A program made the position numbers and the translations under genes. The notes under the pieces were generated by a model. It did not search any database and was not told the DNA's origin. It saw nothing but the letters and a program-made list of their open reading frames with translations. Shown here piece after piece: positions 1,361 through 26,842 of a stretch of DNA of 29,799 nucleotides. The stretch comes from a virus. How positions within the stretch are numbered: position 1 is the stretch's first letter; every line of letters begins with the position of its first letter. Where the stretch lies: the IMG/VR virus record IMGVR_UViG_3300037117_000016, positions 1-29,799 of that record; one strand, written 5' to 3'.

Positions 1361-1941
1361 TTTGAAAACCTCTCTGTAATCTTTCTGCACAACTCGATGA
1401 AGTTCTCTTTAGAAAGCGCTTTCTTCATCATGTTTACTTCTCCACAGCATGCAACAGAGTTCTCTAAGGTATAACCTTTGGTGTTGTCCAAACGGTCTAT
1501 CCCGTTGTACGTATACACCTCTCCCGATTGTGCCTTAACAATGCTGCTAGGAACTGTTCCTGTGTAATAGCATGGAGAAGAAGTCAACTCTTTGAACTTT
1601 TCTGCTGTCAGTTCCCAAATAAAACCTCTAGTCTTTGCATTGTTCTTGTACATTGCTAACAAGTGACGAAATGCAGAGCCTTCCTTCACAGCCTTTGAGT
1701 GGGCAATTCCTATATTGGCTCTGGATGATGCTAACTTTGCACATCCACAACTATTGGTTTCTCCACTGGTAAGGTTGTGCGCTTTTATTAGTTTTTCTAC
1801 TCCACACTCACATCGGCACATCCAAAACCTACGCTCTCCTACCTCTCTAGTAAGAGTATAAAGTGCGGTCAGTTTTCCAAAAGTATTTCCAGTCAAATTT
1901 CTGTATTTATAACTTGCTGGTTTTCCATCTAATCGTCTCAT
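1357..1941 (-). CDS. Free-standing HNH-type homing endonuclease with zinc-binding N-terminus
   Basis: A 194-aa protein from MRRLDGKPASY; GAGGGG lies upstream and is part of the pseudoknot described at 1942-2016. Residues about 15-65 (LTGNTFGKLTAL, CRCECG, then SCGC) form the Cys-rich DNA-binding module common before phage HNH domains. Residues about 110-185 (CYYTG, YNGIDRLDNTKGYT, ENSVACC, VNMMKKA) match the HNH variant in which GIDR..N..GYT and CC..(C/V)N surround the metal site. It overlaps the next gene as ATGA, so ribosomes finishing here can restart on the structural gene. Homing activity is inferred from family and context. Confidence 0.85.
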   Translation of the reverse strand: MRRLDGKPASYKYRNLTGNTFGKLTALYTLTREVGERRFWMCRCECGVEKLIKAHNLTSGETNSCGCAKLASSRANIGIAHSKAVKEGSAFRHLLAMYKNNAKTRGFIWELTAEKFKELTSSPCYYTGTVPSSIVKAQSGEVYTYNGIDRLDNTKGYTLENSVACCGEVNMMKKALSKENFIELCRKITERFSK

Positions 1942-2016
1942 GGTAGTTCCCCTCGTAAAGGATTTGCGGGACCGATTACGAGTCGATCCCGCGCTGCTTG
2001 GTAATGAACCGAGCAG
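1942..2016 (-). promoter_or_regulatory. Homing-endonuclease leader pseudoknot (copy 1)
   Basis: The leader has hairpin 1 (CTGCT...AGCAG, about 1993-2016) and hairpin 2, a 10-bp stem (1983-1992 with 1966-1975) closing a 7-nt loop CTCGTAA (1976-1982). The loop is exactly complementary to TTACGAG (1952-1958), which abuts the Shine-Dalgarno of the 1357-1941 gene. The architecture is the same as in the other six copies although the primary sequence differs throughout. Sequestration of the ribosome-binding site is the inferred role. Confidence 0.75.
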
Positions 2017-4784: not shown

Positions 4785-4966
4785 TCTGAGTTCTCCTGAG
4801 TCTTAGTTTAGTTACTCCCCGGCTCAACAGCCCCGTCCGTTTGCGCGAAAGGGCTGGGGGCCAAGGAAATCGCTCGCTCTAGCGCAAACTAGGCGAGACG
4901 AAGATCATGTAAAAACAAAAGGCACTGCTCAGTTAAGAGCAATGCCTTGGGTTAAAATCGAGTTGT
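4785..4966 (-). terminator. Intergenic region with rho-independent terminator
   Basis: Behind the Endonuclease VII-like gene, a 12-bp stem (4937-4948 with 4919-4930, loop TTAACT) is followed on the minus strand by TTGTTTTT. One pair is G-U only in the minus-strand RNA, so it is oriented for leftward transcription. The rest (4810-4905) is GC-rich with overlapping inverted repeats (GTTTGCGC/GCGCAAAC, CAGCCC/GGGCTG). No convincing promoter for the GroES-like gene was found there. Confidence 0.75.
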
Positions 4967-5455
4967 CTAAGCGTTTGGTCCGAGTCTAAAACTACGCCAA
5001 TACGCTAGGTAGTCCATTGCACGGGCTGTCCACGTATTCCACAAAGGTTTGAGTTCTCCTCTGGTGTCTTTCAGTACTTGTTCTAAGAATCCCACCATGC
5101 GGTTGCAGTCTGCACAGAGTATTCCACGGTTGCAATTGCCACAGGTTAATTCTTTGTCACAGCATTCGTGATCATGGTCCACCGCCATACGGCGCTTGTC
5201 ATCTCCCTGCCTTGCTGGGCAAAGAGCACAGTGGTCACCTTGCTCTTTCAACTGAGTGTCATATTGCTCAGGTGTCATCTTGTGGCGTCGTTCCAGTTGC
5301 TTCCTACGCCCATACTCAGGTGTGTACCATTTACCTGTTGGTAGTGTTGCTTCCCATGCTGCTGTCGCCTCTTGTGTCTTGCGGCGAAACTCTGGGTCTT
5401 CAGCGTAGCGTTTCCTGCTGTTTGTCCTTCGGTCTTCTTGGCTCTTGTACGGCAT
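4967..5455 (-). CDS. Endonuclease VII-like free-standing homing endonuclease
   Basis: A 162-aa protein from MPYKSQEDRRTNSRKRY. A basic helical N-terminus precedes an Endonuclease VII-type His-Me finger. Visible parts are GDHCALCPARQ, the catalytic-region AVDHDHECCD, then CGNCNRGILCADCNRMVGFLE with the paired zinc Cys residues. It sits just downstream of the intron-bearing capsid gene and is followed by a terminator. It has its own promoter (5548-5576) and pseudoknot leader. It could supply the nuclease for the ORF-less intron nearby; that is inference. Confidence 0.85.
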   Translation of the reverse strand: MPYKSQEDRRTNSRKRYAEDPEFRRKTQEATAAWEATLPTGKWYTPEYGRRKQLERRHKMTPEQYDTQLKEQGDHCALCPARQGDDKRRMAVDHDHECCDKELTCGNCNRGILCADCNRMVGFLEQVLKDTRGELKPLWNTWTARAMDYLAYWRSFRLGPNA

Positions 5456-5540
5456 TTGTATTCTCCTAGAAAGATCGCACGGCGAGTGTTCTAGGCACCC
5501 GCCGCGCTAGTGCTGGTTTATAAATCCAGCAATGTCTTAA
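5456..5540 (-). promoter_or_regulatory. Homing-endonuclease leader pseudoknot (copy 2)
   Basis: Hairpin 1 is TGCTGG/CCAGCA (5511-5531). Hairpin 2 has a 9-bp stem and 7-nt loop CCTAGAA (5489-5495). The loop is complementary to TTCTAGG (5465-5471), which runs into the Shine-Dalgarno AGGAG of the 4967-5455 gene. Relative to copies 3, 5 and 6 both pairing partners have changed together. The leader begins TAAGACATTG, like the copies that follow stop codons. Confidence 0.8.
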
Positions 5541-9149: not shown

Positions 9150-9620
9150 CTAGTTCTGAGTTTTCTGAGTCTGATATTTCTCGATGTAGTCTGCTGCTTT
9201 ACGGAGCAATTCTGGACTGTCTTTTAGATACCCTATAGCTCTGTTGCATGAACCACAAAGTAAACCTCTAGGATTCGGAGGCTCTACATGCTCATGATCA
9301 GCGGAAAGTTTTCTATCCACTTCTTCCTTGTCACATATAGCACACAACCCGTGTTGTTCTTCAAACTTTACATCGTAGGATTCCTGAGTCCAACCCGCTG
9401 CTACTAACCTACGAGCATGTGTTACAAGTATAACTTTTTCTGAGTTTTCTTTGTACCAATCTGCTGATTTCTTTTTCTGCTCTGCTTTGTGTGTGCGACG
9501 GTATTCTGCTTGTGCAGCCCGTGCAACTTCTGTGTTTCGATAGCACTGCATGCACAGTCCGTGACCGTAATGTTTACGCTCTGGGTGACATACACAGTCT
9601 TGTTTATATCCTCTTGCCAT
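9150..9620 (-). CDS. Endonuclease VII-like free-standing homing endonuclease
   Basis: The start MARGYKQDCVCHPERKHYGH at 9620 follows GATAGGAG. The N-terminus has a CxC...CMQC metal site. A basic helix follows, then the Endonuclease VII domain: HGLCAICDKEEVDRKLSADH, RGLLCGSCNRAIGYLKD, and the terminal helix LLRKAADYIEKY. Cys pairs and the DH.H catalytic region are intact. It sits between portal and scaffold genes, and its stop is 12 nt before the scaffold ATG. Its leader nearly matches that of the unrelated GIY-YIG gene at 15118-15711. Confidence 0.88.
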   Translation of the reverse strand: MARGYKQDCVCHPERKHYGHGLCMQCYRNTEVARAAQAEYRRTHKAEQKKKSADWYKENSEKVILVTHARRLVAAGWTQESYDVKFEEQHGLCAICDKEEVDRKLSADHEHVEPPNPRGLLCGSCNRAIGYLKDSPELLRKAADYIEKYQTQKTQN

Positions 9621-9701
9621 TTTATCTCCTATCAAGATCGAGAGGGAGGTGTGATAGGCACCTCCCAACTCTAACCCAAAGCCGCTAAGCCTTGAGATGT
9701 C
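9621..9701 (-). promoter_or_regulatory. Homing-endonuclease leader pseudoknot (copy 3)
   Basis: Starting directly at the portal stop codon, hairpin 1 is CTCAAGG/CTTTGGG around CTTAGCGG. Hairpin 2 is an 8-bp stem GGGAGGTG/CACCTCCC with loop CCTATCA (9652-9658). The loop is exactly complementary to TGATAGG (9628-9634), which includes the AGG of the endonuclease Shine-Dalgarno. Confidence 0.85.
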
Positions 9702-12299
9702 TTACTTCTGCGGTTGCTCTAAGGCGTGGGGTATAGCCTTTTTAGCCACAGCGTCGTTCAGTTGTGTAGCTGAGTGTTGAGTGAACATATCAGGAGTAGC
9801 ATTGATTTGGGCCTTTGCTAAAGCCTGCACTGCCACAGGAGGTGGCATTTTGCTCACATCTATGCTTATTGACTCAGAAGGTGGTTTATTCTGAGGAAGT
9901 TGGTTCGCCGCAGCAATTTTCTTAGCCATAGCGACGTGCTCGGTCCAGTGAAGCTTCAAGTTGGCAAAACATGCCTGTTGATCTGGAGCTCCAAATCTCA
10001 GCTTCTGCCCTTCAATCGAGTTCATTTTTTCAAAGCATTCCGACGCCTCTACGGCGTGATTTTCGCTTTCGTCTTGTGCTACCTGAACACTGCTGACTTG
10101 AGGCGGTACTGATTGCATCGCCTGTTTCAACTGCTCAACCATAGACCCTGCCTGTGGAGGAATCATTTGTCCTGTAGCCTGTGCGTTCTGCATACCTTCA
10201 TTAGCCTGATCCAACGCATCCTTCATTTTAAGGAACGCTGGGTTGTCTTGTGGAGGTTGCCGCAACAGCATCTCGAATTCATTCTGCTGTTTTGTAACTG
10301 ACGAAGCCCCTGGCACCTTGTAGTTCTTCATGCGCAGTGCGCTTGCAGTCTCAGCCAAATTGGATGGACTGAATACCCATTGTGCAAAAGGTGTGGCTGG
10401 GGCAGTAATGGCCTTGTCGATCATACCTACTATCTTCACTGCTTTTTGTTCTTCAGTTTCTGGGATAGATGGGTTGCTTTCTGCGTAGCATAGAACATTA
10501 CCACCAAGTAGATTGGCAGTATTGACTCTTATGTTTCCGTGTCCAGGGACATTCTGCGATAATTCTTTACCATCACGGCACTCTGCAGCGCATTTCACGG
10601 CCTGCCCTGCAGCGAGTGCGAATAAGTCCTGAATGTTATTCCATGGACAGCCCACACGCTGTAACGCTTGATCGCGCTGAATGACTGCGTTGCCTACTGT
10701 GTTCTCACCTGTAGCGTTGCCGAACAGGGAAGGCAGTGCACCCGAGATTTCCTCGGATAGAGTCGTGATAAACCATTTTATAAAGTCAGGCAGCGCAGGT
10801 TGATGCTGCGGAGTCGGCTCTACCATCATGTACTGTTCCATTGTTGTAAGCCCAGGTTGAGGCTGGAACGGCCCTATGCTTCCGGGCATATTGGGCTCAC
10901 TTTTGATCTTATCCATGTCGAACGCTTCGGCGTTCATCCACTTCTTAGGGATGGTGCGCTTGAAGAAATCATCCAGAAGATCAACCCAATCGTTGATGCG
11001 CTTCTGAACTGAGATTAGGGCTGTGCCCATCGCTCTGCGGTTCTGACCTTTGCCTGCTGTCGGGTGTCCGATGGCGATGTGGTCATCCATCTTCTCGTTG
11101 CGAGAAAAAGCATACTCTTGTCCTGCGCGAGCCAGTAGCACTCCGTCTGGGAATGCCTCTAGCAACTCTGCTTTGACTTCATCGCTAACGGCTTGGTCAA
11201 GGAACATTGAAGGTCGCATCCATGTGAACTTCACAGTGGTATGGCGACTCAATGAGTCTCCTGTCACGTACGCACCGAGTACTGCTTGGCGTACGTTTTC
11301 TCTAGCTATGCGATCAAGTTGTGTTGACGATTGTCCGTCAGTGCCGGGATTGATCTTGCTGGCAATCCACGGGAACATGCCGCGAACTAAAGCTACATCA
11401 TAGTCCAGCATCAACTGTACGAATGTCATTTCGGATACGTTATCAACGGAGATGGGAACCTTATGGTCCAGTTTCCCGTGAGCCGTGGTAACTTCCATGC
11501 CAAGAGGTTTCTTAGAGTTGTTTCCGACACCTGCTGAATTCAGCAGACCGTCGATGTCTCCTCCACTTTCGGACTCAGATTCAGTGACTTGTAAAAAATC
11601 CTCTTGTCCTTCTTGTCCAGTGGGGGTTCTATCGGGAGGGTTAAGTTCGTCCTCGGGTACAGTGGGAGTTCCTTGGTTTTCCTCGAATCCATACTTCTGA
11701 CCGTCGAGGTTGTAACGTGTCCACAAAAGGGCGCGATCTTCATTCCAGAAAATTCTAGCGCACTGAACTAAAAGTTCATGAAGGTTGTTGTTCCGTGCCC
11801 AGATGTCTTTGAAACGGTCAGCCTCTTCGGCTGCAATCTTATCTGGTCCCCACTCAGGGTTGCATGGGACAAACTCTACCTTTGGCACTTCGCGTGACAG
11901 CGCAGAGACGATTATGTCTCCCTTAGGGCCGTACACGTTCGTGTCATAAATACTGTTGTGGTTTCGTTCGTTGGCTTTCTTTCCCTGTCCACCACCGGGG
12001 AGTTCCCAGCCTCCGCGTTTTCCACGCAGCAAGTGCTGGTATCCTCTCTCGAAGTGTAGCGCTTCCCATGCCTGCTCAACTTCAAGCCTTCTGGCGGCTA
12101 CATCGGCTTTTGTGCAGATGTCATCAAGGGTAATCAACGTGCCACGTGCCTTATCGCTTAACTCCGCAAAGGGTTCTGGGCTGTAAGGAAAACTCGCATA
12201 AACCCCTAGAGGGCTGTCATTAGGAGACTCTGGTTGGTCGCCTTGCTTGTTAGAGCCTTCAGCCTCTACTCCTGTTGCTTCTGACACTACGTCTGGCAT
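9702..12299 (-). CDS. Portal protein (P22-type family)
   Basis: An 865-aa protein from MPDVVSEATGVEAEG, GGGAGA upstream. Its order fits large podovirus portals: an N-terminal charged region, the helical wing about residues 70-200 (NSIYDTNVYGPKGDIIVSAL, IFWNEDRALLWTRYNLDG), a mid segment TALISVQKRINDWVDLLDDF, NATGENTVGNAVIQRDQALQ, and a Gln/Pro-rich helical C-terminal barrel-like region. It lies between the small-protein cluster and the scaffold. The start overlaps the HNH gene by 41 nt. The ring role at the packaging vertex is family knowledge. Confidence 0.82.
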   Translation of the reverse strand: MPDVVSEATGVEAEGSNKQGDQPESPNDSPLGVYASFPYSPEPFAELSDKARGTLITLDDICTKADVAARRLEVEQAWEALHFERGYQHLLRGKRGGWELPGGGQGKKANERNHNSIYDTNVYGPKGDIIVSALSREVPKVEFVPCNPEWGPDKIAAEEADRFKDIWARNNNLHELLVQCARIFWNEDRALLWTRYNLDGQKYGFEENQGTPTVPEDELNPPDRTPTGQEGQEDFLQVTESESESGGDIDGLLNSAGVGNNSKKPLGMEVTTAHGKLDHKVPISVDNVSEMTFVQLMLDYDVALVRGMFPWIASKINPGTDGQSSTQLDRIARENVRQAVLGAYVTGDSLSRHTTVKFTWMRPSMFLDQAVSDEVKAELLEAFPDGVLLARAGQEYAFSRNEKMDDHIAIGHPTAGKGQNRRAMGTALISVQKRINDWVDLLDDFFKRTIPKKWMNAEAFDMDKIKSEPNMPGSIGPFQPQPGLTTMEQYMMVEPTPQHQPALPDFIKWFITTLSEEISGALPSLFGNATGENTVGNAVIQRDQALQRVGCPWNNIQDLFALAAGQAVKCAAECRDGKELSQNVPGHGNIRVNTANLLGGNVLCYAESNPSIPETEEQKAVKIVGMIDKAITAPATPFAQWVFSPSNLAETASALRMKNYKVPGASSVTKQQNEFEMLLRQPPQDNPAFLKMKDALDQANEGMQNAQATGQMIPPQAGSMVEQLKQAMQSVPPQVSSVQVAQDESENHAVEASECFEKMNSIEGQKLRFGAPDQQACFANLKLHWTEHVAMAKKIAAANQLPQNKPPSESISIDVSKMPPPVAVQALAKAQINATPDMFTQHSATQLNDAVAKKAIPHALEQPQK

Positions 12300-12840
12300 T
12301 GTTTATCTCCCGCCTGTAATCCATTGTCTTTGCTCCCTTGCTTGAATTACAGGGACCACAGAGAGGTTGGATATTGCTAATATCGCTGGTTCCACCTTTG
12401 GAAACAGGAACCACATGGTCTGGTGTCAATTTCTTTTTCTTACCGCAGCACAAACATTTATTGTGATACTTGTCACAAAGTGCAACCCATTGCTCATAAG
12501 TATAGGCACCGCCTGATTTGGCTTTAGCTGTGCGTCTTTTCTGAAGGATAGCAGAAACCTTTTCTGGGTTTTCTCTTTTCCATCTAGCAAGATTTTCTTT
12601 AACCAATTCAGTATTATCTGCCCTAAACTTTGCGCTGTACGCTAAAGCTGCTTCTCGGTTATTCTCGTAGTATGCCTTGCGGTTAGCCTTTACTTTGTCT
12701 GGGTTTTTCTTAGCCCACTTTGTATAAGAAGCACGAGACTTATTCCTATTTATTTTCTTCCACTCTCTACTTTGCAAAAGACTTTTTTCTTTATTAGCTA
12801 TGTAGTATGCGTGGCGCTCTTCTTTTGTCTTGTATGGCAT
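12259..12840 (-). CDS. HNH free-standing homing endonuclease
   Basis: A 193-aa protein starting MPYKTKEERHAYYIANKEKS. The first 120 residues are a Lys/Arg-rich helix with repeats of the WKKxNxxKxxA type. The last 75 form a classic HNH nuclease: CLCCGKKKKLTPDHVVPVSK, then SNIQPLCGPCNSSKG, with the two Cys pairs and the catalytic DH intact. It follows a pseudoknot leader and overlaps the portal start by 41 nt. The leader is almost identical to that of the different HNH gene at 19821-20201. Confidence 0.88.
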   Translation of the reverse strand: MPYKTKEERHAYYIANKEKSLLQSREWKKINRNKSRASYTKWAKKNPDKVKANRKAYYENNREAALAYSAKFRADNTELVKENLARWKRENPEKVSAILQKRRTAKAKSGGAYTYEQWVALCDKYHNKCLCCGKKKKLTPDHVVPVSKGGTSDISNIQPLCGPCNSSKGAKTMDYRREINNARRSVRSNRSRG

Positions 12841-12922
12841 TGTGTCCCTCCAAGGACGACTCAAGGAGGGTGTTGGAGCACCCTCCGAGTCTAGCCCACG
12901 CTGATCAAGGCGTGAGATGCTT
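12841..12922 (-). promoter_or_regulatory. Homing-endonuclease leader pseudoknot (copy 4)
   Basis: Begins at the stop codon of the 67-aa gene. Hairpin 1 is CTCACGC/GCGTGGG. Hairpin 2 is GGAGGGTG/CACCCTCC with loop CTCCAA (12873-12878), complementary to TTGGAG (12848-12853) at the Shine-Dalgarno. An outer GACTC/GAGTC stem extends hairpin 2 in this copy. Confidence 0.82.
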
Positions 12923-13126
12923 CTAATGTTTCATGGCCGCAAATCCGGCAGCGGATGCCTTCATTCTCTTAACGTGTTCGCTGTCACCAGCTTTTGGTTC
13001 CTTCTGGGATGCGCTTAACTTCTGTCCTTCGGGAACTCCTAGTGCGCGATGGAGTCCGCCCTTGTTCACATTGAAGGAGCCGTGTGAACCTAAGTCCACT
13101 TTGTGACTCTTGTGCCCGATTGCCAT
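12923..13126 (-). CDS. 67-aa basic small late protein
   Basis: Starts MAIGHKSHKVDLGSHGSFNV with AAGGGAG upstream. It is Lys/His-rich and ends AAGFAAMKH. It closes the cluster of tiny proteins upstream of portal and abuts the next gene (stop followed directly by the ATG). Its MAIG start loosely resembles the MIGIG/MSVGIG starts of its neighbours. The function is unknown. Confidence 0.65.
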   Translation of the reverse strand: MAIGHKSHKVDLGSHGSFNVNKGGLHRALGVPEGQKLSASQKEPKAGDSEHVKRMKASAAGFAAMKH

Positions 13127-13300
13127 TTAGTAAACTCCCTTGCCATTGTTCTTGTGCTGTCCCGTAGCAGAGGAATTGCTTCCCTTGCGAATTCCCATAG
13201 TCACTCGCTTGAACGAGGTAGGATTCTGATCCTTCGCAGACAATGGAGGTTGCTGCGGTGATGCGTCCAACCTGGTTCTTCGTCCAATTCCTACGCTCAT
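13127..13300 (-). CDS. 57-aa basic protein, MSVGIG start
   Basis: The chosen start MSVGIGRRTRLDASPQQP at 13300 follows AAGGGAAG and lies 1 nt after the stop of the 40-aa gene. A longer in-frame ATG (13414) would overlap that gene completely. The protein is basic, Ser/Asn/Gly-rich and probably disordered (GIRKGSNSSATGQHKNNGKG). It shares the Gly-Ile-Gly start with two neighbours. The function is unknown. Confidence 0.6.
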   Translation of the reverse strand: MSVGIGRRTRLDASPQQPPLSAKDQNPTSFKRVTMGIRKGSNSSATGQHKNNGKGVY

Positions 13301-13301
13301 A

Positions 13302-13424
13302 TTACTTCCCTTTGGCGCACGGTGCGCCCATGACTTCTGCCATGTAATCTTGTTTCCCTGTGTTCTTTGTGTTCTTAGATGGTTCAGGCAACTTTGACTT
13401 TGGTCTTTTTCCAAGCCCTATCAT
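13302..13424 (-). CDS. 40-aa basic protein, MIGLG start
   Basis: ATG 13424 overlaps the preceding stop as ATGA and opens MIGLGKRPKSKLPEPSKNTK, followed by a short helix and one Cys (MAEVMGAPCAKGK). The start sequence matches the neighbours MIGIGAPKKKP and MSVGIGRRTRL, which argues for a real gene and possible duplication. The function is unknown. Confidence 0.6.
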   Translation of the reverse strand: MIGLGKRPKSKLPEPSKNTKNTGKQDYMAEVMGAPCAKGK

Positions 13425-13600
13425 GCTGCCCTCATGCTTCCTTTTACTAGTTGCCCACCAGAATCAATCCTAGGCTTCTTCTTACGTGGCGCTGGCGTAG
13501 GGGCTTCCCCTTGTAGCCACGACGGTAACGGAGTAGAGTTCATCGAAGCAGTCTCCGCAGGTACTGCTGGTTTCTTCTTTGGAGCACCAATGCCAATCAT
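13421..13600 (-). CDS. 59-aa Pro/Lys-rich protein, MIGIG start
   Basis: The start MIGIGAPKKKPAVPAETASM at 13600 follows GGGAGAAG and overlaps the stop of the upstream Cys protein as ATGA. The body is Pro, Ala and Lys rich (APTPAPRKKKPRIDSGGQLV), likely disordered and basic. It overlaps the next gene by 4 nt. The function is unknown. Confidence 0.6.
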   Translation of the reverse strand: MIGIGAPKKKPAVPAETASMNSTPLPSWLQGEAPTPAPRKKKPRIDSGGQLVKGSMRAA

Positions 13601-13821
13601 AAGTTCTTCTCCCAGAATTTGCAATACGCGACCGCATGTACTTTCACATCGCCATTTTCAAGACGTGGCAACTTCGACAATTCCTTCATCTTCGGCCCAT
13701 TACACCCGTTCTCTGCTTTCACAAAGTGCTCGCAGTTGAAGCAATGCTCCGAACTGCCGGGGTGATGCGACTGGTACCCAGTCTTAGGTTCCTTCAGGAT
13801 TGAAAATGCAAACTTACCCAT
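13597..13821 (-). CDS. 74-aa four-Cys metal-binding protein
   Basis: The start MGKFAFSILKEPKTGYQSHH at 13821 follows GGGAGGAAG. Cys residues lie in HCFNCEHFVKAENGCNG and, near the C-terminus, AYCKFWEKN. This CxxC...C...C layout recurs in small phage and bacterial proteins with an iron-sulfur or zinc site. It overlaps both neighbours. Metal binding is inferred; the biological role is unknown. Confidence 0.68.
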   Translation of the reverse strand: MGKFAFSILKEPKTGYQSHHPGSSEHCFNCEHFVKAENGCNGPKMKELSKLPRLENGDVKVHAVAYCKFWEKNL

Positions 13822-13975
13822 TTTTCTTCCTCCCAAAACCTGGGGCCTTTTTCTTCTTCTCTGGCAGAGTTTTAAAATCGGTGGCGCTAGACCACTCAGC
13901 CAGCTTGCTCTTCCCGCCTACCTTCTCGGGATGAGCGTACAAAAATCTTTGTTGCGCCTTTGACTCGAACGGCAT
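13814..13975 (-). CDS. 53-aa conserved small phage protein
   Basis: ATG 13975 follows a strong AAGGAG at 5 nt. The protein starts MPFESKAQQRFLYAHPEKVG, continues AEWSSATDFKTLP, and ends in a Lys/Arg-rich tail (KKKKAPGFGRKKNG). This start and the later (A/S)TDF..LP pattern recur in small proteins of phage structural regions. The stop overlaps the next gene start. A nucleic-acid or virion role is guessed only from its basic tail and position. Confidence 0.7.
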   Translation of the reverse strand: MPFESKAQQRFLYAHPEKVGGKSKLAEWSSATDFKTLPEKKKKAPGFGRKKNG

Positions 13976-13984
13976 GCTAACTCC

Positions 13985-14521
13985 TTAGACTAAGTTTGGC
14001 ATGGCAAAGCCATCAGATTCTGACGGTGCGCCTTGCTGTCCTTGATCTTTGTGGTTGAAGCCAATCTTCTCTTCGTTGCCTTCTTTGCCAGCAGGTGGAA
14101 CACCAGCAAGATCGCTCGCTTCTTTGTGCGCGTCCGCTGCGTTCTCGTGTACGTTCGTGTGCATGTGACCATCTTTGTGATGACTCGTCACAGTGTGGCG
14201 TCCAGACTTCTCGTCGTGATGAACAACAACCTTGTGGGCAGGGCCGTGCTCTGCGACCACGGGGTGCTGCTCACCTTCATGCTCTTCTTTTCCGTTCTCT
14301 TCGTTCATCTCTCCGTTATGCTCGTCGCCCTCGTTCGCTTCGACGCCCTCATGCGCACCTTCGTGTTCACCAGCTTCAAACTCTGGGGATTCAGACGCTT
14401 CATGCTCAGGTGACTCTTTTGGTCCACCTTCGGAATGCATGCCATCAGGGGTGTGATCCTGATCATGCTTACGGCCAGCGAAGATACTGCCAAACTTTTT
14501 ACCACTTTTAGATGTGTACAT
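13985..14521 (-). CDS. 178-aa His/Glu-rich low-complexity protein
   Basis: Starts MYTSKSGKKFGSIFAGRKHD behind AGAGGAG. Residues 20-90 are a Glu/His/Gly-rich run (GEHEGAHEGVEANEGDEHNG). Residues about 95-130 are His-rich (HKVVVHHDEKSGRHTVTSHH). There is no hydrophobic core, so it is probably disordered and may bind divalent metals. The low-complexity composition also creates long open frames on the opposite strand that are not genes. The function is unknown. Confidence 0.65.
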   Translation of the reverse strand: MYTSKSGKKFGSIFAGRKHDQDHTPDGMHSEGGPKESPEHEASESPEFEAGEHEGAHEGVEANEGDEHNGEMNEENGKEEHEGEQHPVVAEHGPAHKVVVHHDEKSGRHTVTSHHKDGHMHTNVHENAADAHKEASDLAGVPPAGKEGNEEKIGFNHKDQGQQGAPSESDGFAMPNLV

Positions 14522-14546
14522 TTTGCTCCTCTTCGGCGTGGCCGAT

Positions 14547-14756
14547 TTATAGAACTTTCTTCAACCGTTCAATGACGGCTGCTTTGGTTTTCTCAACGTA
14601 ATCTTTGCACTCGCACATTGAGGGTGGTACCCAACCTTTGCGCTCCGATAGTGAAGGCTCATGGTCGTACTGGCAACTGATCTTATACCCGTTTTCCACA
14701 ACGCAGATTGCGACGTGGCATAATTCGCCAAGTTTCTCTTCTTTGTCTTCTGCCAT
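14547..14756 (-). CDS. 69-aa Cys-containing small late protein
   Basis: Starts MAEDKEEKLGELCHVAICVV behind AAGGTG. Two Val/Ile strands are followed by SCQYDHEPSLSERKGW, SMCECKDYVEKT and a basic helix at the C-terminus. Five Cys residues could hold a metal, but the spacing is not a standard ribbon. It starts 2 nt after the stop of the coiled-coil gene. The function is unknown. Confidence 0.62.
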   Translation of the reverse strand: MAEDKEEKLGELCHVAICVVENGYKISCQYDHEPSLSERKGWVPPSMCECKDYVEKTKAAVIERLKKVL

Positions 14757-14758
14757 GC

Positions 14759-15121
14759 TTACACCTTGGCGGCGGTTGCCGCTTCCTCTGCTAATTCGGC
14801 TTCAATGCGTGCGTCGTGCTCTTCTTGCTCTGCTTGCCACGCAGTTTTCACCTTGGGTGATGTGAAGCTGGCGAAGCTGGGCTTCTCTGCACGTTTTCTC
14901 GTGGGGTCAATACCTACACGGGCATTAATGTTTTGCTCGTACATTCCGACCTTGGCTTGCAACAGTGCTTTCTCTGCACGGAGGTCCGCAATAACTTCAT
15001 TCATATCCTGACGCAACTGTTGGTTCTCCATTTGCAAACGAAGAATCTCAGTCTGCATTACTTCTGCAAGGCGTGAGCCAAGCAAATCGCGTAGGAACTG
15101 ACGTATGCTTTTACCTGTCAT
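14759..15121 (-). CDS. 120-aa coiled-coil protein
   Basis: Starts MTGKSIRQFLRDLLGSRLAE. Residues 20-65 are a heptad-rich helix (LRLQMENQQLRQDMNEVIAD), followed by a basic stretch and an acidic helical tail. The ATG overlaps the GIY-YIG stop as ATGA. The gene keeps its own GGAGGACTCAGA initiation site, so it probably predates the endonuclease insertion. The function is unknown; a virion or assembly role is possible. Confidence 0.65.
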   Translation of the reverse strand: MTGKSIRQFLRDLLGSRLAEVMQTEILRLQMENQQLRQDMNEVIADLRAEKALLQAKVGMYEQNINARVGIDPTRKRAEKPSFASFTSPKVKTAWQAEQEEHDARIEAELAEEAATAAKV

Positions 15122-15711
15122 TCTGAGTCCTCCATTTTAATAAGCCTTCCCATAGAGTCCCTTTTACGATGCTTCACAAGCTCTTTTCTTAACAGAACCG
15201 TACTAGGGGCTTGTTTGGCTCCTAGATGTCCTTTTCGATTGGCTTCTATTTGTTCTAGGGTTGCTTTCTTACCTTTGTTCCACGCGGTTCTACCTTTTCC
15301 CCGCTCACTCATTTTTCTTCGTGATGCTTCTGAGTGTTTAAACCCCAAATGCATAGGCGGCATATTTTTAAGTCTTTGCCTACCTTTTTCTCGTGTTCTT
15401 TCGGACACTATACGGGAAGACATCGCTTTACTTATTCTATCCCGAGCATCTTTTGACATGTTTCTGGTGCCTTCTCCACCATCAGTGAAGTTCCTAAGGC
15501 ATCCCAATCCTAAATCTTTGCGCCCGTAATACCATATCAGGGCTATTTCGTTTTCAATTGCTTCGTCTTCGTCCTTGGCTATGTAGAAAATAATTCTTCC
15601 TAAAGGTGGTGCAACTCCAATCCTGTGCCGAGCATATGCTCTATCCTTTTTTCCTTTTCCAACATAGTAAGGTGTTCCATCTTCTCGCAGCCACATATAT
15701 GTATAGAACAT
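15118..15711 (-). CDS. GIY-YIG free-standing homing endonuclease
   Basis: A 197-aa protein starting MFYTYMWLREDGTPYYVGKG at 15711. The YTYMW...YYVGKG motif is the GIY-YIG core, and GIY-YIG domain residues continue through ENEIALIWYYGRKD and LRNFTDGGEG. The C-terminal half has the basic repeats typical of modular DNA-binding tails (GFKHSEASRRKMSERGKG, AWNKGKKATLEQIEANRKG). It is a paralogue of the plus-strand gene at 25277-25819. It sits between large terminase and the coiled-coil gene, with a pseudoknot leader. Confidence 0.88.
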   Translation of the reverse strand: MFYTYMWLREDGTPYYVGKGKKDRAYARHRIGVAPPLGRIIFYIAKDEDEAIENEIALIWYYGRKDLGLGCLRNFTDGGEGTRNMSKDARDRISKAMSSRIVSERTREKGRQRLKNMPPMHLGFKHSEASRRKMSERGKGRTAWNKGKKATLEQIEANRKGHLGAKQAPSTVLLRKELVKHRKRDSMGRLIKMEDSE

Positions 15712-15791
15712 TTTGTCTCCTATCAAGATCGAGCGGGAGGTGTGATAGGCACCTCCCAACTCTAACGCTGGGTAATTAGTCCAACGATGTC
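15712..15791 (-). promoter_or_regulatory. Homing-endonuclease leader pseudoknot (copy 5)
   Basis: Starts at the terminase stop codon. Hairpin 1 is CGTTGG/CCAGCG around ACTAATTAC. Hairpin 2 is GGGAGGTG/CACCTCCC with loop CCTATCA (15743-15749), complementary to TGATAGG (15719-15725) at the Shine-Dalgarno. Hairpin 2 and the downstream strand match copy 3, while hairpin 1 matches copy 6 in its loop. Confidence 0.85.
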
Positions 15792-17471
15792 TTATTGATT
15801 TTCATACTTGGATTGCCAAACTGGTTGCTCAGTTTGTTTAAACGAAGACGTGTGACTCTCTGCTTCTGCATCCAACTTCATGCGAAGGAAGTGGGCAGCT
15901 AGTGGGTCAGTCTTTTTCAACATTGCGACTCGTTCTGCTTCGATCTGTGCTTCAGGTTTCTTCTTTGCTCCAAGGTGTCCGTACAGTCCATATCGGAAGC
16001 CATCGTAACAATCATCGCCTTTGGCATCGACCTTCAGCACATCGTCCATCACTTTAGGGTCGCGCATCAACGACGGGATTGCAAGGATTATCTCCCTGCA
16101 AGTGTCGAGGATTACAATTTCGCCCTTCTTGATGCAGTTATACATCAGCGATGCAGAACCAATGCGGTCCTGTGTCGCTCGTGTAACTGGCGGTAAGCCC
16201 ACAAGTTTCAATGCTCGTGAGTACTCATTCGCAGGTGTGCGTTCGTCCATCTGTCTGTTGAACTTTTCGTGAGAAAAGTAAATTGCTTTGAGTGCGATTG
16301 GTTTTCCGTTTGGCAAGTGTGCTTTTGCTTTGATGATCGAGGCCAACTCGTCCATCGTCTTGCCGCCCGTTACAACAATCTCTTGAAAGCAAACAGTCTT
16401 GAGTCTGTAGTTGTCTCCAACTGAGTCCTTAACCAGCGCCTTCGTAAACAAATACGTGGCGTTGGCGTGCTGCATGCCCCAGTCTTCTCCGGCCCAGCAC
16501 GGTTGCCAGTCTTGCCAGATGATAGCCTCGGGGTCTTCTCGTAAATTTATTACGTGGTACGAAGGGTCGAAGCAGTCGAAGTACTGTCCTTCTGCTACAC
16601 CGTCATACCCGTATAGAACTTTGTCCCGCTTCGCCTTCGGCATTGACATCAAACGTGTAACGATGCCAGGGTCACGTGCGAGCAGTTCTGGGTTATCAAA
16701 AACTGTCGAGCGTTGGTAGGCGTACTCGTCTGGGTCGTAAATCTTGCTCCACTCCCCAGATTCCTTAGTCCACCATGTTCCATCCACGGGATCGCGCTTG
16801 GCTTCCTCGCCTGGATTCCATGGTTCCTTCTGAACAAACAGCGTGCGGTAGTATTCATAGTGTGGACCCAACGGGTTCGTACACCCTACGATGGTTGGTA
16901 TCGGGAGATTGTTGTGATCGTCCCGTTGGCAAGCTGGGTTGACGATGTTACGTTGGAACAGCATCATCCATGCATCCGGCGAGAACTGACCACATTCATC
17001 AACCAGAATAGCGGGGTAAGCCTGCCCTAGGTACTGCTCGATGTCTCGGTCTTTATTGTTCTGGCAGTGTCCGAAGACTACACGTGATCCATTTGTTAAT
17101 GTAGCAACGTGCTTCGTGGAGTCGTAGGTGTATAGTTCCTTCGGCATGAAGGTGCGAAAATCTGCAATGGCTCCGTTCTCCAGTTCTTTAAAATTTCTTC
17201 TCAGAACTAGAAGGTTGCACCCTTCCCATTGTAGGCAATAGTGCATCACAAAAAACATGAGCCATCCGCAAGTTTTACCTGAGCGGATACCCCCAGTGCT
17301 GAGACACTGGCCTGCGGCGGGTTGCAGGTAGACTTTGCCATTACGCATGACGTTCCGCATCAACTCCGTCTGCTTCGGCTGGAATCTGAATATCTTGTCG
17401 AAATTCAGTGTTCCATCTGTGTTTAAATATGGCTTTGTCTCTACTGCATCTACGATTTTTCTTCGGGGCAC
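15792..17471 (-). CDS. terL: Large terminase subunit (TerL)
   Basis: A 559-aa packaging motor protein. The ATPase has Walker A GGIRSGKT (residues 60-67) and Walker B AILVDECGQ (Asp158-Glu159 acidic pair). The nuclease half shows AGEDWGMQHA and a late DDCYDGFRYGLYG, consistent with the RNase H-like metal-binding acids. The start is GTG (MPRRKIVDAVE), with AGAGG and the CTCA spacer upstream. Length is normal for the family. It follows the putative small terminase by 10 nt and precedes a GIY-YIG insertion. Confidence 0.93.
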   Translation of the reverse strand: MPRRKIVDAVETKPYLNTDGTLNFDKIFRFQPKQTELMRNVMRNGKVYLQPAAGQCLSTGGIRSGKTCGWLMFFVMHYCLQWEGCNLLVLRRNFKELENGAIADFRTFMPKELYTYDSTKHVATLTNGSRVVFGHCQNNKDRDIEQYLGQAYPAILVDECGQFSPDAWMMLFQRNIVNPACQRDDHNNLPIPTIVGCTNPLGPHYEYYRTLFVQKEPWNPGEEAKRDPVDGTWWTKESGEWSKIYDPDEYAYQRSTVFDNPELLARDPGIVTRLMSMPKAKRDKVLYGYDGVAEGQYFDCFDPSYHVINLREDPEAIIWQDWQPCWAGEDWGMQHANATYLFTKALVKDSVGDNYRLKTVCFQEIVVTGGKTMDELASIIKAKAHLPNGKPIALKAIYFSHEKFNRQMDERTPANEYSRALKLVGLPPVTRATQDRIGSASLMYNCIKKGEIVILDTCREIILAIPSLMRDPKVMDDVLKVDAKGDDCYDGFRYGLYGHLGAKKKPEAQIEAERVAMLKKTDPLAAHFLRMKLDAEAESHTSSFKQTEQPVWQSKYENQ

Positions 17472-17481
17472 TGAGTTGCCT

Positions 17482-17997
17482 CTATTTCTTTTTCTCGTTC
17501 GTGACTACACCTAGTACCTCTGCAAAGGATGGCTGCTTGGGTTTTACAACCGCTTGATCTGCATCCACAACTTTGGGGTTCATTAAGTCTGGTGACACCA
17601 CGATGATTGTCTTCACAGGCTGAGTCGTAATCCTGTCTAAGTCTTGCTCTGATGACGCTTCTTTGCCCAGCGCACGTCTCATCACAATCTCGTACGCCTT
17701 CACCACCGCCATTGCTAACTTGGGGTCCGAGGTTTCGAGTTGCGAGATACGTAGGATGTTTCTAAAAGATACTTCGTGTTCTGTCATGCCCTCTTTATCT
17801 TTGTTGGGGCCATACAGAATCTTTCTTTCCTTACGGGTAAACTCTATGGTAGGGATAAGGGGCTTTGACTTCTTTACGAAGGTGCCCTTCTCGCTACGTA
17901 TCATTTCCCTTAGTCCACCCTCTTTGGTTCTTACGATTACCAACGACGTGCCTTCAGGAGGGTTTTGTGGTAAAGGCTTAGGTTCTGAATCTGCCAT
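17482..17997 (-). CDS. Putative small terminase subunit
   Basis: A 171-aa protein from MADSEPKPLPQNPPEG. The start is fused to the stop of the Endonuclease VII gene as TAATG. The N-terminus is Pro-rich. The middle is helical (SFRNILRISQLETSDPKLAM, VVKAYEIVMRRALGKEAS) and the C-terminus Val/Pro-rich. No DNA-binding motif is obvious. The small-terminase call rests on its place immediately before large terminase and on its size. Confidence 0.5.
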   Translation of the reverse strand: MADSEPKPLPQNPPEGTSLVIVRTKEGGLREMIRSEKGTFVKKSKPLIPTIEFTRKERKILYGPNKDKEGMTEHEVSFRNILRISQLETSDPKLAMAVVKAYEIVMRRALGKEASSEQDLDRITTQPVKTIIVVSPDLMNPKVVDADQAVVKPKQPSFAEVLGVVTNEKKK

Positions 17998-18476
17998 TAC
18001 TTTCCCCACTTTCTTAGATAAACTGCGGCAGCTTCACATAGTGTGGGACTTTCCTGTAGCATGCCTAGTGCTTGATTGCATGTACCGCAGAGAAGTTCTC
18101 TAGGAAGGTTTGTGAGGTGATCATGATCTGCATGTGGGGTTGCTTCAAAGGGTTTATTGCACAAAGCACAGCAGTTGTTCTGCTTCTCCCTAGTTTCCTC
18201 TACAGATTCTGGAGTCCATCCTAGTTTCTTCAACGCAGACTTGCGGGAGCGCTTTACTGATTTGGTACGAAATTCTGAATCGTTTTTGTAACGTTTCCTG
18301 CTTGCTTGCAATTGTTCTTCTTTGTTCTCAGAGTAATACTTCTTCATGTACTCTGAGTTTGGTTTACGCTTACCACGTTTTGCTTCATTCTTTAACTTCA
18401 AACACGCTATGCACGCCCCAATGTTATTCACATTGTCTGGCGTTCTTTCGTGTCCACGTTTGCAGTGTGTTTTCAT
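17997..18476 (-). CDS. Endonuclease VII-like free-standing homing endonuclease
   Basis: A 159-aa protein starting MKTHCKRGHERTPDNVNN, with CKRGH...CIAC as an N-terminal metal site. A long basic helix follows (KKYYSENKEEQLQASRKRYK). The nuclease domain shows NNCCALCNKPFEATPHADHD, ELLCGTCNQALGMLQESP and the final helix. The catalytic DHDH region and Cys pairs are intact. The stop overlaps the next ATG (TAATG). Preceded by pseudoknot leader copy 6. Confidence 0.88.
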   Translation of the reverse strand: MKTHCKRGHERTPDNVNNIGACIACLKLKNEAKRGKRKPNSEYMKKYYSENKEEQLQASRKRYKNDSEFRTKSVKRSRKSALKKLGWTPESVEETREKQNNCCALCNKPFEATPHADHDHLTNLPRELLCGTCNQALGMLQESPTLCEAAAVYLRKWGK

Positions 18477-18554
18477 TTTAACTCCTATATAGTTCGAACG
18501 GGGAGTGATATAGGCACTCCCCACTCTGCACTGGGTAATTAGTCCAGCGATTCT
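18477..18554 (-). promoter_or_regulatory. Homing-endonuclease leader pseudoknot (copy 6)
   Basis: Starts at the stop codon of the 106-aa gene. Hairpin 1 is CGCTGG/CCAGTG around ACTAATTAC. Hairpin 2 is GGGGAGTG/CACTCCCC with loop CCTATAT (18508-18514), complementary to ATATAGG (18484-18490). Compared with copies 3 and 5 both loop and Shine-Dalgarno strand changed in step. Confidence 0.85.
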
Positions 18555-18875
18555 TTAAAGTTTCTTAAAAGAGTTCACCACACCGTCAAATACATACTCG
18601 GCCTTGGTGACACCGTACTTCAAAAACAATTGCTCGACATACGTTGTATATTCCTTCGATTTGGCTTCAGCAATCTTGCTCAGACGCTGTATCTCCATCT
18701 GGCTTTTAAGGAATTCCAACTCTGCATTGCGGAGCACGAGTTGCTCCTCTGCTTTAATCTCCACAATCGCAGCCTTGATCTTCTCTTCAACCTTCGCCAC
18801 AACTGCTGCTGCAACAGTCTCTACCTTGGCTTCAACTGCTTTCACTTCACCTTCAATTACGGTTTCGATTGACAT
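18555..18875 (-). CDS. 106-aa helical Ala/Glu/Lys-rich protein
   Basis: Starts MSIETVIEGEVKAVEAKVET with CAGGAGACTCAGA upstream. The first 60 residues are heptad-like Ala/Val/Glu/Lys, forming a probable amphipathic helix. The C-terminal part (YTTYVEQLFLKYGVTKAEYV) looks globular. It sits between the SprT-like gene and the terminase region. The function is unknown. Confidence 0.62.
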   Translation of the reverse strand: MSIETVIEGEVKAVEAKVETVAAAVVAKVEEKIKAAIVEIKAEEQLVLRNAELEFLKSQMEIQRLSKIAEAKSKEYTTYVEQLFLKYGVTKAEYVFDGVVNSFKKL

Positions 18876-18906
18876 TCTGAGTCTCCTGAGTTTTTTTATT
18901 TGATGC

Positions 18907-19311
18907 CTAGAAAATCGTTAGACCTTTTAAGACGGCACCTTTCTTAAAAATCCCTCTATCCGAAATCCTTAGTCTCTGCTCTTCAAAAGCAGGTCCATGA
19001 TCATCGCGCTTCTTTGTGGCTACATGGCACATCTCGTGTGCCAGTGTTGCGAGTATTGCGGTATTTCCGGGGTTCTTACTCTTGCTAATTATGATGGTGT
19101 ACTCATGCCGGTAGTGATCTTCAGCAAATGCCTCTGGAGCATCACGTTTGTCCGATGTCCACGCAAAATACTTTTCCTCAAACTTTTCTATTTCCAATTC
19201 ACTGAGCCATCGCACGCACACGTTGTTTGGCAGTTCGTTGTTGAAGAACTTTTTGTTAATCTTTCTGTACCACCGCTTCAAGCGCTTATCGGATTGCACT
19301 GCATTCTCCAT
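18907..19311 (-). CDS. SprT-like zinc metalloprotease
   Basis: A 134-aa protein starting MENAVQSDKRLKRWYRKINK. The zinc site is LAHEMCHVATKKRDDHGPAF: His92-Glu93-x-x-His96 with a third His at 105, the arrangement of the SprT/Wss1-like family. The N-terminal helix and LPNNVCVRWLSE strand precede it as expected. The C-terminal zinc ribbon of bacterial SprT is absent. SprT-like proteases act on protein-DNA crosslinks in cells; the phage role is unknown. A weak GGCGAG is the only ribosome-binding site. Confidence 0.8.
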   Translation of the reverse strand: MENAVQSDKRLKRWYRKINKKFFNNELPNNVCVRWLSELEIEKFEEKYFAWTSDKRDAPEAFAEDHYRHEYTIIISKSKNPGNTAILATLAHEMCHVATKKRDDHGPAFEEQRLRISDRGIFKKGAVLKGLTIF

Positions 19312-19820
19312 GCTCGCCGCGCAGTCTGCGTTTTCGAGCGTAGAAACGTAGAAAGCCCCAACTCAGTTAAGAGTTGAGGCTTGGGTCCGTAGTTACTCAC
19401 TACGGAGATGTATTTGAAATGTTCCTGTTACCAGCCATGTTCGTGCATGGGCTTACGTAGTTCTGAGGGACAGGTTGCTCCTCTATACAACGTTCCCGAA
19501 CTCGTAAAGGAGCTACCTTGTGAGGATCGGGTGTCGCTGTGCGTTGATGTTGGCCTAGGTGCAACGCTTACACCCTATGCGGTTTCCGTACCCCGCGCCG
19601 TAGTCTGCGGCGGAAGCAGAGCGGACTGTGCATCTCGGGCAGGTTGCGCCTGACATGAAGCGTAGCTTATGCGCCTCTCCGAGTTGCTATGCGTCCACTA
19701 GGGACGACTTTCCGACAAGCCTGACCGAACGCGCTGTGCGTCAATCGTTATATGCCTCCCCTTCCAGTTAAGGGTTAGGGGAAGTCAGGAAACGTGTCGA
19801 AACTTTACTGCCTACTTCAT
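19312..19820. other. 509-base intergenic region with hairpins
   Basis: No convincing gene. At 19353-19382 a 12-bp hairpin with loop TTAACT (minus strand) matches the design of the terminator at 4919-4948 but has only a short TTTC tail. At 19386-19406 lies a perfect 8-bp repeat (TCCGTAGT/ACTACGGA). At about 19753-19783 a third, weaker GC-rich hairpin repeats the TTAACT loop. A 33-aa ORF at 19656-19555 with CPRC and CKRC pairs exists but has no ribosome-binding site. Confidence 0.5.
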
Positions 19821-20201
19821 TCAGCGAATGATGTCGCTGTGGAGTCCCAACGGCAGTTTAAATCTGAAAGGGTTTATGTATATGAGGCAGCACCTATGAG
19901 AACAAAATCTGTGGGGACTTCCATTCTCTCTGCATTCAATAGGCCCACCACACTGCTCACATACGCCTTTGAACATTTTCATCGGCTTTGCATGCAACTT
20001 GGTGTGTGCTGGTTTACTCATGCCTTCTAAGTTCTTAGGATTATTGTCTCTTTTATGTGTGTTCTCGTGATGCACAGTCTCAGGAAGATGACCGTTCTTT
20101 TTCCAAAACACTAAACGATGCTCATAGCAGTATCTTCCTCTGTACTTCTTACCCGGATAGTTCTCCGGTGCAACAACCAACGTGTATGGTCCGTTCTTCA
20201 T
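19821..20201 (-). CDS. HNH free-standing homing endonuclease (I-HmuI-like HNH subtype)
   Basis: A 126-aa protein from MKNGPYTLVVAPENYPG. The segment CYEHRLVFWKKNGHLP, then ETVHHENTHKRDNNPKNLEG, is the HNH core with His-His and Asn-Asn-Pro-x-Asn-Leu, as in phage HNH_3 proteins. After THTKLHAK-type residues a C4 cluster (CEQCGGPIECRENGSPHRFC) starts, but the protein ends soon after, so a DNA-binding tail may be shortened. It uses the leader sequence shared with the 12259-12840 gene. Confidence 0.8.
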   Translation of the reverse strand: MKNGPYTLVVAPENYPGKKYRGRYCYEHRLVFWKKNGHLPETVHHENTHKRDNNPKNLEGMSKPAHTKLHAKPMKMFKGVCEQCGGPIECRENGSPHRFCSHRCCLIYINPFRFKLPLGLHSDIIR

Positions 20202-20279
20202 TTGTCCCTCCAAGGACGACTCAAGGAGGGTGTTGGAGCACCCTCCGAGTCTAGCCCATAGCCGCTAAGCCATGAGATT
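20202..20279 (-). promoter_or_regulatory. Homing-endonuclease leader pseudoknot (copy 7)
   Basis: Starts at the stop of the 36-aa ORF. Hairpin 1 is CTCATGG/CTATGGG around CTTAGCGG, with an A-U to U-A exchange relative to copy 3. Hairpin 2 and the pairing strand (loop CTCCAA 20233-20238 with TTGGAG 20208-20213) are identical to copy 4, including the GACTC/GAGTC outer stem. Confidence 0.82.
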
Positions 20280-26658: not shown

Positions 26659-26842
26659 GATGTGGCTGCGCTGCAACTGGCTGGCGTTCTGCCGCGACTA
26701 CAGAGACGCCACCAGCACCTGCTATTCGTGTGGGCGCTACGGGGCCTCGGTAGTAAGCCTTGTGTACCCCAAGCGATTGTGTGATGCGTGTGCACGTTCT
26801 TTTTCACGGAGGTATCATACAACTATGGGGGATGCCAAGTGA
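26630..26842 (+). CDS. 70-aa zinc-ribbon protein
   Basis: ATG 26630 follows AAGGAGGAGT, a near-perfect ribosome-binding site, inside the end of RNase H. After a hydrophobic/basic N-terminus (MNFIFLARIKMWLRCNWLAF) come TCYSCGRYG and RLCDACARSF, two CxxC pairs about 20 residues apart: a zinc ribbon. The stop overlaps the HNH start. The function is unknown. Confidence 0.6.
   Translation: MNFIFLARIKMWLRCNWLAFCRDYRDATSTCYSCGRYGASVVSLVYPKRLCDACARSFSRRYHTTMGDAK

Follow-up and report, generated by a model that had tools for sequence, protein, structure and literature searches.

A leader with a candidate Shine-Dalgarno pseudoknot, exchanged among homing endonuclease genes of phage late operons

Seven leader-endonuclease cassettes in one phage contig

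The window analyzed here is the whole of an IMG/VR phage contig of 29,799 bases (IMGVR_UViG_3300037117_000016), which carries structural genes on its minus strand and genes for DNA polymerase and RNase H on its plus strand. It contains seven free-standing homing endonuclease genes (HEGs), all on the minus strand and each with the same kind of leader at its 5' side, spanning from the upstream stop codon or intergenic region to the start codon of the HEG. These genes are homing-type nuclease open reading frames (ORFs) located between conserved phage genes, as judged from Pfam matches and intergenic positions. The leader comprises two hairpins followed by a strand that can pair with the loop of the second one and that overlaps the Shine-Dalgarno (SD) sequence. 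The original prediction had proposed that this leader is exchanged between unrelated nuclease families as a separable module; copies 1 and 2 were absent from it and are members of the same set. The features are listed below, with E-values of the covariance model R1 (described in the next section) for leaders and of Pfam for genes.

1942..2016, minus strand: leader copy 1, from the pseudoknot scan; hairpin 1 at 1994-2016, hairpin 2 at 1966-1992 (loop 1976-1982), SD-side pairing strand 1952-1958
1357..1941, minus strand: HEG 1, 194 amino acids, zinc-ribbon/HNH-like 'FGK'; family by motif and BLAST cluster, without a Pfam match
5456..5531, minus strand: leader copy 2 (E=1e-17); hairpin 1 at 5511-5531, hairpin 2 at 5477-5507 (loop CCTAGAA, 5489-5495), pairing strand 5465-5471
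4967..5455, minus strand: HEG 2, Endonuclease VII type (PF02945, 9e-14)
9621..9696, minus strand: leader copy 3 (E=7e-21); hairpin 1 at 9675-9696, hairpin 2 at 9640-9671 (loop CCTATCA, 9652-9658)
9628-9634, minus strand: pairing strand of copy 3, framed by hairpin 3 (ATCT/AGAT)
9150..9620, minus strand: HEG 3, Endonuclease VII type (PF02945, 8e-19)
12841..12917, minus strand: leader copy 4 (E=7e-12); hairpin 1 at 12895-12917, hairpin 2 at 12858-12891 (loop CTCCAA, 12873-12878)
12848-12853, minus strand: pairing strand of copy 4, framed by hairpin 3 (GTCC/GGAC)
12259..12840, minus strand: HEG 4, HNH (PF01844/HNH_5; PF01844, 2e-14)
15712..15786, minus strand: leader copy 5 (E=2e-21); hairpin 1 at 15766-15786, hairpin 2 at 15731-15762 (loop CCTATCA, 15743-15749), pairing strand 15719-15725
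15118..15711, minus strand: HEG 5, GIY-YIG/NUMOD3, inserted directly 3' of the terminase stop codon (PF07460, 2e-8; fold match; empty site)
18477..18549, minus strand: leader copy 6 (E=3e-16); hairpin 1 at 18529-18549, hairpin 2 at 18496-18526 (loop CCTATAT, 18508-18514)
18484-18490, minus strand: pairing strand of copy 6, framed by hairpin 3 (AACT/AGTT)
17997..18476, minus strand: HEG 6, Endonuclease VII type (PF02945, 5e-14)
20202..20276, minus strand: leader copy 7 (E=6e-13); hairpin 1 at 20255-20276, hairpin 2 at 20218-20251 (loop CTCCAA, 20233-20238)
20208-20213, minus strand: pairing strand of copy 7, framed by hairpin 3 (GTCC/GGAC)
19821..20201, minus strand: HEG 7, HNH_3 type (PF13392, 2.5e-8)

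When the window was scanned without any fixed sequence motif, using only a stem and loop-SD complementarity, a pseudoknot value (pk) of at least 6 was obtained for exactly these seven leaders, all 5' of HEGs; the remaining matches reached only pk=5, which is the level of shuffled sequence. Copy 1 was missed by R1. Rfam returned nothing at the gathering threshold in the window, and the leader positions were empty even at E<=5. The GIY-YIG N-terminus of HEG 5 was missed by Pfam, but when its predicted model was compared with the PDB, UvrC GIY-YIG domains occupied ranks 1-9 (probability 0.93-0.99, E 0.04-0.15). The 3' end of HEG 4 overlaps the start of the portal gene.

Loop pairing and covariation of the leader

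Our collection comprises approximately 100 distinct leaders from about 40 viral records. A search with a loop-and-SD pattern yielded 20 viral loci, of which 18 lie 5' of HEGs or HEG remnants, and broader patterns gave more; loci L016 and L021 of the pattern scan are chance matches (stem 3, pk 4). An alignment of 42 leaders (A1) was used to build R1, with the pseudoknot left out, and this model matched 80 leaders, distributed over 26 of the 29 viral records searched, further ones being found in relatives fetched via their portal and terminase proteins. As a caveat of the sample, some leaders, including those from which A1 was taken, were found by patterns that presuppose some of the loop-SD pairing; two scans with patterns of hairpin 1 only yielded 17 distinct leaders, all 5' of HEG-like genes and all with loop-SD pairing (three of these pairings were checked by eye). 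The leaders precede genes for Endonuclease VII, two GIY-YIG types, HNH, HNH_2, HNH_3, AP2-HNH and other nuclease-like proteins (PF02945, PF01844, PF13392, PF07460, PF01541 and PF00847), with family labels past the Pfam matches assigned from motifs and BLAST clusters. Bacterial and archaeal genomes totaling 257 Gb gave three matches to the same kind of pattern, all lacking the stem and attributable to chance. Only chance matches were obtained from the plasmids searched and from isolated phages using blastn with two leaders, and 12 HEG regions of isolated phages presented neither an R1 match nor the pseudoknot. Rfam matches in 20 loci were limited to tRNAs and group I introns, none of them on a leader.

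Hairpin 1 has a stem of mostly 6-9 base pairs (bp) and a loop taken from a limited set. Recurring loop alleles (e.g., at 1994-2016, 9675-9696 and 15766-15786 of the window) are GTTGCT, TTAGCG, ACTAATTAC, CTTGATCA, CTCGAA and CTCATTA, several of which are palindromic. In hairpin 2, 3-5 bp make up the lower stem and about 8 bp the upper one, which is closed by a loop of 6-7 nucleotides (nt); a few nucleotides further on lies a strand that is exactly complementary to this loop and contains the start of the SD. The loop was fully complementary to its own SD-side strand in 89 of 98 distinct leaders, compared with a mean of 3.1 and a maximum of 11 after shuffling, and the distinct leaders present 58 different loop sequences. 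The nine exceptions include G012:69502, in which the strand is missing, and the scars G020:24231 and G020:23819, while others such as G006:75724 and G012:37187 appear by eye to pair in a different register. In 63 of 92 leaders, at least 3 nt of the SD core fall within the pairing strand.

A third small hairpin, which was absent from the original prediction, frames the pairing strand and holds part of the remaining SD. This hairpin 3 reaches at least 4 bp in 57 of 95 leaders (16.5 after shuffling, maximum 27), and a near-invariant CT (91% each) lies 5' of the pairing strand. Across all five helices, 87.6% of the alignment cells were paired, with 224 double-change cells against 80 in shuffled data, and this covariation signal was lost when the partners were slid by 1-3 columns (25-67 double-change cells). 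The loop L3 measures 9-11 nt in 80 of 95 leaders, fitting the expectation for an 8-bp stem 1. The leaders thus present the loop-downstream pairing, the covariation and the feasible loop lengths of a putative H-type pseudoknot. The predicted structure would include the SD of the HEG, as in the masking of ribosome-binding sites (RBS) of T4-type HEGs. Because hairpins 2 and 3 are separated by only 0-2 nt, the lower stem of hairpin 2 together with hairpin 3 on the one hand and the pseudoknot on the other are probably alternatives.

Other structures were considered and rejected. Full kissing of the loops of hairpins 2 and 3 with all stems formed is sterically unlikely given this spacing; a terminator or antiterminator does not fit hairpins without a following U-run; and an RNA of an RNA-guided nuclease (omega-RNA like) does not fit a leader of about 80 nt that is highly variable and organized around the SD.

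Exchange between nuclease families and movement of the cassette

Within the window, copies 3 and 5 have 97% identity across 58 nt (9618-9675 and 15709-15766) and precede different nuclease families, Endonuclease VII (PF02945) and GIY-YIG/NUMOD3, as had been predicted. Copies 4 and 7 likewise precede two HNH types (PF01844/HNH_5 and PF13392 HNH_3). Their predicted identity is real, although it is 100% over 56 nt (12843-12898 and 20203-20258), slightly longer than the approximately 50 nt initially reported, and the positions first given for copy 7 were off by 2 nt. The loops of hairpin 1 follow the other grouping that had been described, copies 3 and 7 sharing TTAGCG and copies 5 and 6 sharing ACTAATTA. 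Assembly error is ruled out by the independent contigs 3300037340_000003 and 3300050011_000120 (L004 and L014), which present the same arrangement and leaders with small differences.

We extended the comparison to 83 dereplicated leader-gene pairs from 41 records. The mean identity of the hairpin 2 module was 0.667 within the same nuclease family and 0.659 between different families; the nearest leader belonged to the same family for 25 of the 83 pairs versus 18.2 after shuffling (p=0.053). Pairs of modules with 93-100% identity were found on unrelated nucleases of different contigs, with the identity stopping at the start codon. An AP2-HNH gene and another HNH gene (G020 and G027) share 100% of the module at what is apparently the same junction and diverge exactly from the start codon, and an Endonuclease VII and a GIY-YIG gene share 100% of it in unrelated contexts (G002 and G008) and 95% of it in another case (L223 and G026). 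The linkage between hairpins 1 and 2 is weak (r=0.27), the identity of hairpin 1 being below 0.65 in 11 of 27 pairs whose hairpin 2 identity is at least 0.88. These results support the view that the leader, and partly its halves, are separable modules. Some co-inheritance remains, both for hairpin 2 within Endonuclease VII (Mantel r=0.15, p=0.007) and for the nearest neighbors of hairpin 1 (29/83 in the same family, p=0.004); the residual correlation within Endonuclease VII indicates that exchange is frequent but not total. In L210, a tandemly duplicated upstream gene accompanies two leader-HEG cassettes (L210:290 and L210:923), whose leaders have hairpin 1 and the lower part of hairpin 2 in common and an entirely different upper part of hairpin 2, loop and pairing strand.

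The distance from the upstream stop codon to the HEG start has a median of 85 nt, with 80-99 nt in 52 of 82 cases. At the empty terminase site (L020 and L253), the stop codon is directly followed by the SD of the next gene (TAGGAGGACTCAGCATG). In the window, this stop codon and this SD stand apart, with the leader and HEG 5 in the space between, and the last HEG codons read through the retained SD. The site is occupied in the window, L235, L246, L247, L261-L263, L265 and L266, and empty in L020 (98% identical terminase), L253, L238 and others, and at least nine different leader-HEG cassettes are found there in relatives. Similar comparisons of occupied and empty sites were obtained for other junctions. 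Leader scars or decayed ORFs are present in L191 (5' of the portal gene), L200, L214, L157, L163 and L146. Taken together, the empty sites, scars and decayed ORFs show that leader and ORF enter new sites together as one cassette, inserted where a stop codon meets the SD of the following gene, and that they may be lost separately. A group I intron-encoded endonuclease was rejected as an explanation, with no Rfam intron in the window and insertion between genes rather than inside one. In L266, a relative with a leader-HEG cassette after the terminase, a group I intron (RF00028) lies at 4686-4903 with several tRNA genes nearby.

The modular view is further qualified in that the leader is not free-living: except for a few scars and a single case beside a non-nuclease gene, leaders always accompany a nuclease gene. 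This case is a siphophage-type contig (L042:4712-4799, G010:11296-11383) with hairpin 2, a fully complementary loop, hairpin 3 and AGGAGG 5' of a tail assembly chaperone-like gene, without a nuclease. A search for relatives of this chaperone gene found none, and its leader could reflect either common origin or convergence. In L189 (G008:14017-15302) and L242 (from position 1174 onward), an Endonuclease VII HEG continues in frame and without a stop into the downstream gene, a homologue of window 18555-18875, predicting a nuclease fusion protein. A repeat that forms a hairpin (CTCAGTTAAGAG core) was also observed twice in intergenic regions of the structural operon (window 4918-4952 and 19352-19386).

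A translational-control reading and its rivals

In all ten records with a recognizable DNA polymerase, the 35 leaders (counting window copy 1) are located on the opposite strand. Among the Endonuclease VII genes of these records, which are related phages and not fully independent, 0 of 16 on the polymerase strand bear a leader versus 17 of 25 on the other strand (Fisher p=9e-6). By eye, several leaderless Endonuclease VII genes present a sigma70-like promoter right at their 5' side or start inside or adjoining the previous gene. The leader may therefore represent a solution for HEGs residing within the late operon. Sigma70-like promoters were also seen by eye 5' of hairpin 2 in some leader copies (L007 and L018). 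On the early plus strand of the window, two HEG-like genes without leader were observed (25268-25819 and 26788-27294), the first overlapping the end of the DNA polymerase gene. An Endonuclease VII-type gene lies between two parts of the DNA polymerase gene in G007:20294-23282 and G014:19719-22431, as though the polymerase gene had been split by a HEG, intron or intein.

We propose, with a probability of roughly 0.7, that the leader serves mobile HEG cassettes in late operons as a portable RNA for translational control, acting through a pseudoknot on the SD. The cassette of leader and ORF separates the stop codon of a late gene from the SD of the gene that follows it. Once transcribed, hairpin 1 would form just 3' of the upstream stop codon, followed by hairpin 2 and by the weak hairpin 3, whose loop would be the 6-7 nt strand with the first part of the HEG SD. 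The loop of hairpin 2, as the exact complement of this strand, could form an H-type pseudoknot over the SD, and HEG translation would be uncoupled from the abundant late operon mRNA, most likely being kept low or delayed. The architecture, the covariation, the exchange, the cassette boundaries and the late-strand restriction are evident from the sequences, whereas we infer the folding of the pseudoknot, the direction of action (repressor rather than activator), the timing and the two-state behavior, as well as any trigger of the leader. The leader may be a two-state switch, in which the lower part of hairpin 2 with hairpin 3 and the pseudoknot are probably mutually exclusive. Recombination at the leader edges (stop codon, junction of hairpins 1 and 2, start codon) has swapped leaders between nuclease families. 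Since the leader is common to unrelated proteins, a nuclease-specific operator is excluded, and the leader must act on the ribosome or on a common factor; because it would act on the ribosome site and not on the nuclease, it should work for any ORF. A more tentative extension, which we hold to be possible but doubtful, is that the leader rather than the nuclease is the constant part of the cassette, a self-contained bistable switch (hairpins 2 and 3 versus the SD pseudoknot) that would make any nuclease ORF safe in a late operon and that families would acquire by recombination at the start codon.

Several observations weigh against translational repression by the pseudoknot. Eight late-strand Endonuclease VII HEGs lack a leader. 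In most copies, only the 5' half of the SD lies within the pseudoknot, whose duplex, at a median of -7.2 kcal/mol, is no more stable than SD:anti-SD pairing (-8.9). The nested minimum-energy fold excludes loop-SD pairing by construction and gives no weighting against hairpin 3.

Alternatively, the pseudoknot might be an activator, hairpin 3 masking the SD by default and the pairing of the loop with the SD strand opening the SD or recruiting 30S, such that HEG translation is turned on by slow refolding or by upstream translation. The control of plasmid repZ offers a parallel to such a model. Hairpin 3 and the pseudoknot share one strand and both covary, the upstream stop codon adjoins hairpin 1 such that terminating ribosomes could affect folding, and toxin mRNAs with activating pseudoknots, timP and tisB, are known (PMC11295053), which also counts against repression. 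However, the overlap of the pairing strand with the first half of the SD implies that the pseudoknot would hide rather than free it, and we consider activation unlikely. Somewhat less probable again is a sensor function, in which the leader, as a riboswitch or as the target of a binding protein, would respond to a metabolite, a host factor or a phage protein that all these HEGs have in common. The conserved architecture, the near-invariant CT and the discrete loop alleles of hairpin 1 could be interpreted in this way, and the ligand cannot be the nuclease itself, as identical leaders occur on unrelated nucleases, but the CT is accounted for by hairpin 3 pairing, and few unpaired positions are conserved, the loops and stems varying freely with compensation, unlike ligand pockets.

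It is very improbable that the leader is a mere DNA homology arm for recombination of HEG ORFs between sites, with incidental RNA folds. Identity of 56-58 nt between copies of one genome, breakpoints at stop and start codons and solo leader scars at old sites (L191 and L200) would fit this role, but homology would favor sameness over compensated change, and 58 loop sequences, each with a matching changed SD strand, along with covarying stems point to selection on RNA pairing. Covariation contradicts this role as the sole explanation, and it may act in addition. Finally, a private regulator co-evolving with each nuclease, whose likeness across nucleases is coincidence or assembly error, can practically be dismissed: the weak residual correlation within Endonuclease VII agrees with it, but identity is nearly equal within and between families and reaches 100% across families on independent contigs, and the same copies recur in independent assemblies.

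The leader shares features with several known systems. T4-type HEGs (I-TevI, I-TevII, I-TevIII, segB and mobE of Aeh1) possess RNA hairpins that mask the RBS and are believed to reduce or postpone translation from polycistronic mRNA (PMC2988022). As in these systems, a structured RNA involving the SD lies directly 5' of a phage homing endonuclease (PMC2988022). However, the hairpins of T4-type HEGs are simple, belong to one gene each and are associated with an internal late promoter, whereas the phage leader described here has several helices, a predicted pseudoknot and covarying loop-SD pairing, is shared and exchanged by at least six nuclease types and lies inside the late operon. The pseudoknot in the leader of T4 gene 32, considered in a 2010 review as perhaps the sole viral pseudoknot for translational autoregulation (PMC3014915), is also located in a phage mRNA 5' of the start codon and has a translational role, but it is bound by its own protein gp32 and lies about 67 nt upstream, whereas the pairing strand of our leader overlaps the SD and the leader is not gene-product-specific. 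The toxin mRNAs timP and tisB have 5' untranslated region pseudoknots controlling how translation of a small, potentially harmful protein is initiated (PMC11295053), a situation resembling that of the leader. These pseudoknots, in contrast, are activating, under antisense RNA control and not known as mobile or common to unrelated ORFs. In preQ1-type riboswitches, a short hairpin has a loop region that pairs with the SD in an H-type pseudoknot. The leader resembles them in this hairpin-loop/SD arrangement but has neither a conserved ligand pocket nor an Rfam match, and its loops and stems change freely with compensation.

Our searches of Rfam and the literature returned no description of pseudoknot masking of the RBS in a module exchanged among nuclease families. 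RBS masking of HEGs itself is known from T4. The leader is apparently an undescribed structured RNA with approximately 100 distinct, strongly covarying examples common to unrelated mobile nucleases. The set constitutes a collection of natural variants for studying how an SD pseudoknot sets translation, and the late-strand restriction makes a role in timing or dosage directly testable. These results suggest that a single portable control element is used by many different mobile nucleases and that selfish genes can exchange their expression control as a separate part, which offers an explanation for the persistence of HEGs within structural operons.

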